Assembly (NCBI GenBank): GCA_902592265.1
Contig: CACJDV010000001.1
Coordinates: 62,001 to 126,000, forward strand
Source: an uncultured Pelagibacteraceae bacterium
GTDB lineage: Bacteria > Pseudomonadota > Alphaproteobacteria > Pelagibacterales > Pelagibacteraceae
Reading direction: 5' to 3'
DNA: 64,000 nt
Part shown: positions 44,012 to 52,049 of the stretch, in pieces
Layout of the letters: every line of letters starts with the position of its first letter
Numbering within the stretch: position 1 is the first letter of the stretch
Notes under the pieces: model-generated
What the model was told of the DNA's origin: nothing
The model's database searches: none
What the model saw: only the letters and a program-made list of their open reading frames with translations
Position numbers and translations under genes: made by a program

Positions 44012-45502
44012 ATGAAGTTATTTTTTATACTGGGTAATCAATTATTTCCATCAAAATACTTGGACCGCTTCAAAAAAGACCACCTATTTTTTATGGCAGA
44101 AGATTACCAATTATGCACTTATGAAAAACATCATAAAAATAAAATTCTTCTCTTCTTGTCATCAATGCGTTCACATGCAGAAAATCTAAAAAAAAGTAAG
44201 TTTAAATTAGAGTATTTTAAAATTGAGGATAAAGAATTTAAAGACGACTATTTAAAGAAATTAAAAAAAACAATTAATTCAAAAAAAATAAAAGAGATTT
44301 CTAGTTTTGAAGTTGAGGATAAATTTTTTGAAAAAAAAATTGACCAGTTCATTAAAAAAGAAAAAATTAAATGGAATATTGTTCAAACCCCAATGTTTTT
44401 AAACTCAAGAGATGAATTCAAGCAATATCTTTCAAAATCGAAAAAACCATTCATGGCAACTTTTTACAAAGAAGTGAGAAAAAAATCTGGAATATTAATG
44501 GGATCTGATGGAAATCCTATTGGAGGCAAATGGAGCTTTGATGAAGATAATAGAAATAAGTTACCAAAAAATATTTCTATTCCAAAGTTTCCTAAAATTA
44601 ATGAAACAAATCATACTAAAAAATTAAAACCCATTATTGAAAAACTATTTAAAGATCATCCAGGAACAACCAAAAATTTTTGGTTTGCTACAGAATACAA
44701 TGATGTGGTCAAATTATTGAATTTTTTTATTAAAGAAAAATCTAATTTATTTGGTGATTATGAAGACGCAGTAGATCAAAAAGATAACATTTTATTTCAC
44801 AGCGCTTTAAGTCCTTATATCAATCTAGGTTTAATAACACCTGAATTTATTATCAAAAAAGTTTTAGATTTTCATAAGAGTAAAAAAATTAGATTAAATT
44901 CTCTAGAAGGTTATGTTCGTCAGGTTATAGGATGGAGAGAATTCATGAGAGGAATTTATCAAAGTTACTCAAACGAAATGGAAACTGGAAATTTTTTTAA
45001 ACAAAATCGTAAAATGAAAAAGTCATGGTATGATGGAACGACAGGTTTACCTCCATTAGATTACGCAATTAAAAATGCTTTAAATTATGGATGGTCTCAT
45101 CATATTGAAAGATTAATGATTTTATCAAACATCATGAATCTTTGTGAGATCAAACCAGTGTTTGTTTATAAATGGTTCATGGAGATGTTTGTCGACTCCT
45201 CTGATTGGGTTATGGTACCTAACGTCTATGGTATGGGATTATTTAGCGATGGGGGGATTTTTGCAACTAAACCATACATTTGTGGATCAAGTTACTTTAT
45301 GAAAATGATGGATTTTAAAAAAGGTGAATGGTGCAATACTATGGACGGACTTTACTGGAGATTTATAGATCGTAATAGAAAATTTTTTTTAAAAAATCCA
45401 AGACTTTCAATGATGGTTAGAATTTTTGATAAAATGAAAGTAGATAGAAAAAAAATTATTTTATCTGCAGCTGATAAATTTATTAAACAAACTACAACTT
45501 AG
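44012..45502 (+). CDS. Cryptochrome/photolyase family protein (FeS-BCP/PhrB-type)
   Basis: [92 protein letters not shown]. Confidence 0.93.
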
Positions 45503-49854: not shown

Positions 49855-50068
49855 TAAAATTTTTGAGTGGGCGGGGGTTATTACAGCAATATTATATTCA
49901 TTATTTGTAGCTATGAATATTGGTATTGAGTTTTTTGGCTTTTGTTTATTACTTATTTCCGCAATCTTAATTGGAGTATGGGCTTATAGAGGTGGTCATA
50001 GAGGAATATTATTTTTACAATTCTTTTATGCTACTGCAGCAATTATTGGGATGTTCAGGTGGTTTTAA
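49847..50068 (+). CDS. Small membrane protein
   Basis: ORF; hydrophobic segments, VWAYRGGHRGILFLQFFYATAAIIGMFRWF. Confidence 0.65.
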   Translation: MNNKIFEWAGVITAILYSLFVAMNIGIEFFGFCLLLISAILIGVWAYRGGHRGILFLQFFYATAAIIGMFRWF

Positions 50069-51204
50069 TTAAAAGTTGAGATTATTTTAGGTATAAAATT
50101 TTTAAAATTAAAAAAACCTTTATTACAATATTGCCAAGAGTATTGATCAAGTTTTCTATATAAAAAATCTAATTTTAAATTATTTGAATTTAAATAATCA
50201 AGGTTTTCACCTACAGTTGGGTATAATGCAATAACTCTATCGCTAATATTCTTTACTTCACTTATATCCAATACATCACAATCTATAGAATTATTTTTTA
50301 GCCTTTTCTTTTGGTCATCAATCAAAAGTGATTTAAATTTGATAACTTTTTCACTTAGTTTGATTGACCTATTTTCATTTTTATTTGAAATTATGTAAAT
50401 TTTTTTAAATTTATGATTTTCAAAATCTGTGGTTTCAAATGATAAACTATTTTCAAAAATAAGAAGATTTTCATCATATATATTTTTATTGCTAAAATCT
50501 TGTTTAACTATTGAGTAAGTTTTTTCAGAAACTTTTGGAGGAGCAGTCTCGTTTAATTTAATATTATTAAATCTATTATTAGTGAATTTTTTAATATTCC
50601 ACTCGCTTGCTAAATAGTGTTTTCCCTGTGTTTGAATTCCAGCTACCCATCTCCAGCCAAGAGTATTAGATGCAGAGTCGCCATCATAAAGATGTTGCAT
50701 AAAAAACTCTGCTCCTAATTGCCAGGGCAATTCTAATGTAAAAATCCAAATACTAGCAAACCACATTCTAGTATGATTATGTAAATAATTATTTTCTTTA
50801 AGCTCTGTTACCCAAAAATTAAAACATTCGATATTGGTTTTTCCATTAATTGCATTTATGTAATTTTGGTTATTTTTATATTCTTCTCGAATTTTATTTA
50901 ACTCTACTAAGTAATCTGTCCAAACGTTTGGTCGCAATTCTAACCAACCTTTCCAATATGTTCGCCACAAAACTTCTTGAATAAATTTTTCATTTTTTGA
51001 GAAAGAAAACTTGCTAAGCGATTTTTCAATAACTTCTTTTTCGTTGATAACTCCATGAGTAATATATGGAGATAAACCAGATATATTTGTTCTCTTTTCT
51101 GGACCAAAATCAAAATTTCTTAACTTAGAATATTCAGAAAGATTTTTTTCTACAAAATTATTTAATCTATTTAAGGCCGCAGCCTTTGAGGCTTCAAACT
51201 TCAT
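50065..51204 (-). CDS. Photolyase/cryptochrome-like protein with N-terminal FAD-binding domain and apparent C-terminal antenna-domain-like region
   Basis: ORF; aa 1-214 FAD domain (NISGLSPYITHGVI, YLHNHTRMWFAS, DGDSASNTLGWRWVAGIQTQGKHYLA); aa 246-379 alpha/beta segment ending KGFFNFKNFIPKI. Confidence 0.85.
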   Translation of the reverse strand: MKFEASKAAALNRLNNFVEKNLSEYSKLRNFDFGPEKRTNISGLSPYITHGVINEKEVIEKSLSKFSFSKNEKFIQEVLWRTYWKGWLELRPNVWTDYLVELNKIREEYKNNQNYINAINGKTNIECFNFWVTELKENNYLHNHTRMWFASIWIFTLELPWQLGAEFFMQHLYDGDSASNTLGWRWVAGIQTQGKHYLASEWNIKKFTNNRFNNIKLNETAPPKVSEKTYSIVKQDFSNKNIYDENLLIFENSLSFETTDFENHKFKKIYIISNKNENRSIKLSEKVIKFKSLLIDDQKKRLKNNSIDCDVLDISEVKNISDRVIALYPTVGENLDYLNSNNLKLDFLYRKLDQYSWQYCNKGFFNFKNFIPKIISTFN

Positions 51205-51210
51205 TTTGAT

Positions 51211-51591
51211 TTATTTTGATTTTTTTTTCTTTAAACCAAGCTTGTCACTATGTCTTAATCTTAAAATAACAATTGCACCAGCAATTAGAACAATGGCAAT
51301 AGCTTCATAAACTAATGCTGTTGGATCCATTTCCTTACCTTGAAGAATAATAAATCGTGCTAAAGCAGTAATTGCAATTAATAATGGAAGAGTAATACTA
51401 ATTGATTGTTGGTTCCAAAAAACTCTTACCATTGCTAGCACTTCTAGGTAAAGAAACATCAATAATAAATCAGCTAAAGTTACTGATCTATTTTCAAACA
51501 TTTTGTACATTTCTATGCCAACTGCAATAACTGTACTTATTAAAATGATAACCATTAAAATAAGCTGTAAATTTTTTGCTATTTTTTCCAT
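51211..51591 (-). CDS. PsiE-like (phosphate-starvation-inducible E) membrane protein
   Basis: ORF; four TM, LADLLLMFLYLEVLAMVRVFW, ALARFIIL. Confidence 0.82.
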   Translation of the reverse strand: MEKIAKNLQLILMVIILISTVIAVGIEMYKMFENRSVTLADLLLMFLYLEVLAMVRVFWNQQSISITLPLLIAITALARFIILQGKEMDPTALVYEAIAIVLIAGAIVILRLRHSDKLGLKKKKSK

Positions 51592-52049
51592 TATTTATCT
51601 TTACTAAAGGGCAACCATTTTTCAAACACTGATTTTGAAGAACCTTCATAAGGAATTGAATAAGAATATGGATTTGGACTTGTTAATACTTCAATACCTT
51701 TTGAAAAAACAAATATAAATACAATCACAAAAACAAGCACCATTATTTTAAAAGGGTCAAAATTTTTTGTTTTAAAAACACTAGCTGAATTTTCTTCTGC
51801 TCTATGAAAATGTTTAAAGGTCATATACACGGCAAAGATTAAACCAATGTGAGCTAAAAAAAGACCAGTCCAACCAAAAACAAAAGTTGTATATGAAAAA
51901 ACATATAAACTAAAAACTGTGGTCCATATGAAACTTAAAACTAATAAAATTTGCAACCTAACAGTTTTAGGGAGAGAACGGAGATCATTTTTACTGTCAT
52001 CAAACAAAATGTTTGCTGTGTCTCTCATCCAATTTTTTAAAGATTCCAT
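51591..52049 (-). CDS. Hypothetical membrane protein
   Basis: ORF overlapping the PsiE-like gene by 1 nt; three TM. Confidence 0.65.
   Translation of the reverse strand: MESLKNWMRDTANILFDDSKNDLRSLPKTVRLQILLVLSFIWTTVFSLYVFSYTTFVFGWTGLFLAHIGLIFAVYMTFKHFHRAEENSASVFKTKNFDPFKIMVLVFVIVFIFVFSKGIEVLTSPNPYSYSIPYEGSSKSVFEKWLPFSKDK

Follow-up and report, generated by a model that had tools for sequence, protein, structure and literature searches.

In canonical class I/III photolyases, an N-terminal PF00875 antenna domain precedes a full FAD domain. Does the window, i.e., the whole 64,000-nucleotide stretch of SAR11 DNA analyzed here, encode a photolyase in which this order has been inverted, as a preliminary description proposed, and would such a protein be of a new kind? 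The ORF in question (Table 1) is intact from its ATG to its TAA, and all the motifs quoted in the preliminary description are present in the 379-aa translation. Its single Pfam match is PF03441 (aa 74–198, E=3.2e-16). The NCBIfam photolyase models aligned aa 2–209 with positions 200–415 of canonical enzymes, and with both the NCBIfam models and the photolyases in the PDB, residue 1–4 of the window protein aligned with residue ~200 of the canonical enzymes. The protein therefore begins inside the FAD part, as had been claimed, with no antenna domain ahead of it; accordingly, the canonical layout of PF00875 plus a full FAD domain was not found by Pfam in the 379-aa protein. In addition, the PF03441 match covers only profile positions 1–127 of 203, which means that the FAD domain is truncated, its end being missing besides the inverted order.

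Table 1. Features of the locus in window coordinates.
Feature	Position	Strand	Basis
PF04244-type photolyase (PF04244 + PF03441), prokaryotic (6-4)/FeS-BCP type, 496 aa, canonical order	44012..45502	+	
NewPHL-type photolyase ORF, 379 aa	50065..51204	-	Full-length relatives known
N-terminal FAD (catalytic) domain, aa 1–214	50563..51204	-	PF03441 aa 74–198; all-helical in AlphaFold model
Linker, aa 215–245	50470..50562	-	No predicted secondary structure, pLDDT 86–93 (AlphaFold)
C-terminal alpha/beta Z-domain (antenna-like), aa 246–379	50068..50469	-	AlphaFold, profiles, alignment
PsiE-family membrane protein (PF06146), just upstream, conserved neighbor	51211..51591	-	Pfam, synteny
Small membrane protein, neighbor in 73/80 SAR11 loci	51591..52049	-	Synteny

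A split gene, with a normal N-terminal domain encoded separately upstream, had been named as one finding that would refute the swap. The reading frame is open for just two codons 5' of the ATG (381 aa), and the gene on that side encodes the PsiE membrane protein, so that no antenna domain is encoded separately on this side; the PsiE-family gene is likely part of the same transcription unit. Across the order the arrangement is also widely conserved. A scan of genome contigs recovered the FAD domain followed by the ~160-aa C-terminus, end to end and at 79–94% identity, in 80/80 Pelagibacteraceae (SAR11) loci, and the gene was present in 91 of the 148 genomes sampled from the order (85/105 of those of good quality). 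The genes for ArgG, a 168-aa ORF, PsiE, the small membrane protein, a 73-aa ORF and an aldo/keto reductase were syntenic in 69–79 of the 80 loci, whose lengths vary. Estimated dN/dS ratios were ~0.04–0.07 for the FAD part versus 0.09–0.22 for the C-terminal part (with dS partly saturated); purifying selection thus acts on both domains. Given these low ratios and the full protein in 80 SAR11 loci, the inverted order is not a matter of chance. The view that the gene is a split or rearranged pseudogene, with a normal N-terminal domain either deleted or encoded at another place, could draw on a broken copy in one SAR11 genome (G337), but 90 other genomes of the order have an intact gene, the C-terminus is conserved and under purifying selection, and no antenna ORF lies upstream, which makes this explanation exceedingly improbable. 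Based on the conservation and on the PsiE neighbor, both the pseudogene and the split-gene readings were rejected.

The swap of domain order is thus real, but it is not novel, since an inverted order already defines the NewPHL class described in 2020. NewPHLs were reported to have an inverted domain topology and to repair cyclobutane pyrimidine dimers (CPDs) in ssDNA (PMC13274461), an activity attributed to the proteins of D. shibae and M. mesophilicum (Emmerich et al. 2020, NAR 48:12845, as cited in PMC9426592). Phr7 likewise consists of an N-terminal FAD domain and a C-terminal Z-domain (PMC9426592), the D. shibae NewPHL has a mere Trp dyad (PMC8948257), and the N5-Asn is conserved in NewPHL (PMC12083526). 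The window protein shares with NewPHLs (D. shibae A8LJA9, M. mesophilicum M7YZC8; equivalent to Prochlorococcus Phr7) the FAD-first order with a short alpha/beta Z-domain last, the Trp dyad, the retained CPD-site residues and the alphaproteobacterial/marine range; in the features compared, it differs from them in sequence divergence only, with about 31–45% identity to alphaproteobacterial members outside the SAR11 order.

To compare individual residues, the window protein was mapped through an alignment with 1owl, using a published description for the list of FAD residues. The FAD residues Y25, L44, S45, R81, N143, D174, D176 and N180 were invariant in all 44 NewPHL sequences, as were E77, W80 and M147 of the CPD site, while W186 was found in 43/44. 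Trp1 and Trp2 (W184 and W161) were present in 44/44, whereas a Trp near the third position occurred in one of 44 NewPHL sequences, the window protein not being among them, versus 50 of 56 canonical ones. Which residues bind the CPD and form the Trp chain is our assumption from what is known of class I photolyases. Compared with class I CPD photolyases (E. coli PhrB, A. nidulans 1owl), the FAD fold, the FAD and CPD residues and Trp1/Trp2 are shared, whereas those enzymes have an N-terminal antenna, a full-length FAD domain and a Trp triad. In a tree of FAD domains, the window protein fell into a clade with the homologs of the roseobacter Ruegeria (L142) and of Peteryoungia (support 100/100); this NewPHL clade was sister to FAD-first split and fused relatives, with support of only 82/70, and canonical photolyases stood apart (99/100). 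Judged by these features and by secondary reports, we estimate a probability of about 88% that the SAR11 protein belongs to the NewPHL class and has photolyase chemistry; it is a further member of this class and not a new kind of protein.

By this reading, the helical domain would bind FAD, which would be photoreduced via the two-Trp chain W184 and W161, and the excited FADH- would give an electron to a CPD bound by E77, W80, N143, M147 and W186. The substrate would probably be single-stranded DNA, by analogy with the two characterized NewPHLs. The C-terminal domain, which in NewPHL is said to seal the FAD site, probably caps the FAD pocket. A different function, namely that of a signaling cryptochrome or another flavin photoreceptor, might be suggested by the reduced antenna and by the two further photolyase-family genes in the genome, which could cover repair. 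We consider this improbable, as the CPD-site residues and the photolyase-type Asn N180 are invariant, the protein carries no signaling extension, and the two characterized NewPHLs repair CPDs (PMC9426592, PMC13274461). A comparison by description only can be made with the short photolyase-like proteins (SPL), which are defined by the absence of the N-terminal antenna domain that is also absent here; they were proposed to be early-branching (Xu et al. 2021, as far as cited in PMC9498864), and NewPHL and SPL were handled together in PMC13274461.

What, then, is the C-terminal domain? The preliminary description had read it by eye as an antenna domain. The AlphaFold model of the full-length protein (27 sequences; mean pLDDT 94.1, pTM 0.92) shows the order beta-(short helix)-beta-helix-beta-helix-beta-helix-beta in this part, with strands at 246–249, 268–273, 309–313, 324–327 and 346–348; G332, G363, F365, D353 and W357 are conserved. 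Searches of Pfam, NCBIfam and PDB sequences with this domain gave nothing significant, PF00875 included. Foldseek with the full model aligned the FAD domain alone, owing to the sequential nature of the method, and with the isolated domain (model pLDDT 82.6) it gave no match below E=0.001. Among the matches listed for the isolated domain, photolyase antenna domains were among those of highest probability (0.89–0.97; TM-scores 0.40–0.47), with the Rossmann-like folds of malate dehydrogenase, USP and DOT1L ranking alongside at similar E-values, a result that is suggestive but not significant.

Profile–profile comparisons with hhalign told more. The Z-domain profile matched the antenna encoded downstream in split-gene relatives (E=9.2e-6/3.3e-6) and, directly, canonical antenna domains (E=2.2e-4; E=0.0034 in the reverse direction), both colinearly over 117–126 columns, and the split-gene antenna in turn matched the canonical antenna profile at E=1.7e-13. 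As controls, the best of 200 column shuffles reached 0.017 and 0.005, and none of 42 unrelated families did better than 0.049. The clear signal came from broader alignments whose columns were chosen at 50% gaps; when the columns of the SAR11 master sequence and smaller alignments were used (-M first), the match to the split-gene antenna dropped to E 0.003–0.01 and the direct canonical signal disappeared, which leaves an antenna origin likely but short of proven. A Rossmann-like domain of other descent, acquired independently as a cap for the FAD pocket and resembling an antenna through convergence on a common fold, would account for the missing Pfam match, for the Foldseek ranks of malate dehydrogenase, USP and DOT1L, and for the dependence of the profile signal on column choice. 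It would not readily account for colinear matches that lie well beyond the shuffles and the 42 decoys, both in the direct comparison (E=2e-4) and by way of the split-gene antenna (9e-6), nor for the recognizable antenna in the same place in the sister lineage (PF00875 E 2e-4 in three Deinococcus proteins), and we regard it as unlikely. An antenna origin of the NewPHL C-terminal domain is, on these profiles, the probable one. The likeness seen by eye thus holds up at the level of profiles and predicted strand order, although it is too weak for Pfam PF00875 or for a significant Foldseek match. The preliminary interpretation is in this way partly supported; the circular permutation that it named would, strictly taken, also require the domain to occupy the same place in 3D.

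The sister lineage also suggests how the inverted order may have arisen. In eight alphaproteobacterial loci (L103–L110, e.g., L109:1183-2533), a FAD-only relative is directly followed by a 130–150-aa ORF, the two genes overlapping by 4–8 nt in 7/8 loci. These downstream antenna ORFs are missed or weakly matched by Pfam, and a model built from them, run against genomes, picks up the antenna domains at the N-termini of canonical photolyases. The arrangement resembles Synechococcus phr4/phr5. Deinococcus plasmids carry both fused (L144:2875-4245 and L147:2812-4185) and split forms (L146:2896-4187), the second part of all three matching PF00875 at E~2e-4, under the Pfam cut-off, and these FAD-first photolyases have a CxxC...C motif behind the FAD domain. 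Position 144 is His in both FAD-first groups, as opposed to Arg in 56/56 canonical enzymes. In marine Synechococcus/Cyanobium, the Phr4/Phr5 split pair and the Phr6 fusion have the FAD module first and the antenna second, as here, and Phr7 was found to be nearest to Phr4/Phr6 (PMC9426592); the comparable split and fused relatives found here form the sister clade to NewPHL and have H144 in common with it. The Phr4/5/6 type differs in its recognizable antenna, often encoded by a second gene, and in the C-x2-C (Fe-S type) that several members have after the FAD domain. The window protein falls outside this type, with a C-terminus that Pfam does not match, no Cys in aa 199–245, and a separate clade. 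On a Chondrinema plasmid (L145:2941-5529), a 362-aa FAD-first protein with an uncharacterized C-terminus directly precedes a PF04244-like photolyase; it forms a long, uncertain branch in the FAD-domain tree.

A simple path would be that an antenna-FAD gene split, became an overlapping FAD-then-antenna pair, was fused again, and that the antenna then degenerated; since the tree is unrooted, the reverse path, in which FAD-first is ancestral, may also apply. Most likely, the C-terminal domain is an alpha/beta domain of antenna type in reduced form, which had a downstream gene of its own before being joined to the FAD domain. We see even odds that it is the classical antenna itself, moved to the C-terminus via a split operon with 4–8 nt overlap and later fused. 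If so, NewPHLs would be derived, domain-swapped photolyases and not a relic of the family ancestor, and the Phr4/Phr5-like pairs of several alphaproteobacterial families and Deinococcus would be the surviving intermediate. The split pairs thereby bear on the ancestral status that the literature has proposed for NewPHL and SPL, the alternative being that gene fission and later re-fusion gave rise to them.

Beyond SAR11, 21 of 296 alphaproteobacterial genomes, the source genome included, encode the same two-part protein, and a model of the C-terminal domain matched 12/299 Pseudomonadota genomes, all in the window's class. The model also matched the copies of Ruegeria (E 5e-40) and Peteryoungia (E 1e-41); the architecture is the same in the homologs of Ruegeria TM1040 and Peteryoungia, which are annotated merely as 'FAD-binding domain-containing protein'. 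Searches of viral and phage sequences gave no NewPHL, the phage matches being confined to the FAD half of the query. In the disrupted NewPHL copy of SAR11 genome G337 (G337:C7:27154-28294), stops/frameshift appear after about aa 300.

An inverted-order photolyase is near-universal in SAR11, which are among the most abundant cells of the sunlit ocean, and in most cases another photolyase gene lies nearby. In the window this is the PF04244-type photolyase, 4.6 kb from the NewPHL gene, and in 51/80 SAR11 loci a gene of this type lies at least partly inside the 3 kb beside NewPHL, which points to a photorepair neighborhood. The source genome also encodes a canonical class I-type photolyase (L082, 505 aa), so that three photolyase-family genes are kept in a small SAR11 genome. 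In Ruegeria and Peteryoungia, an AarF/ABC1/UbiB kinase gene adjoins NewPHL, on opposite sides (L142:2971-5573, L143:1668-4209).
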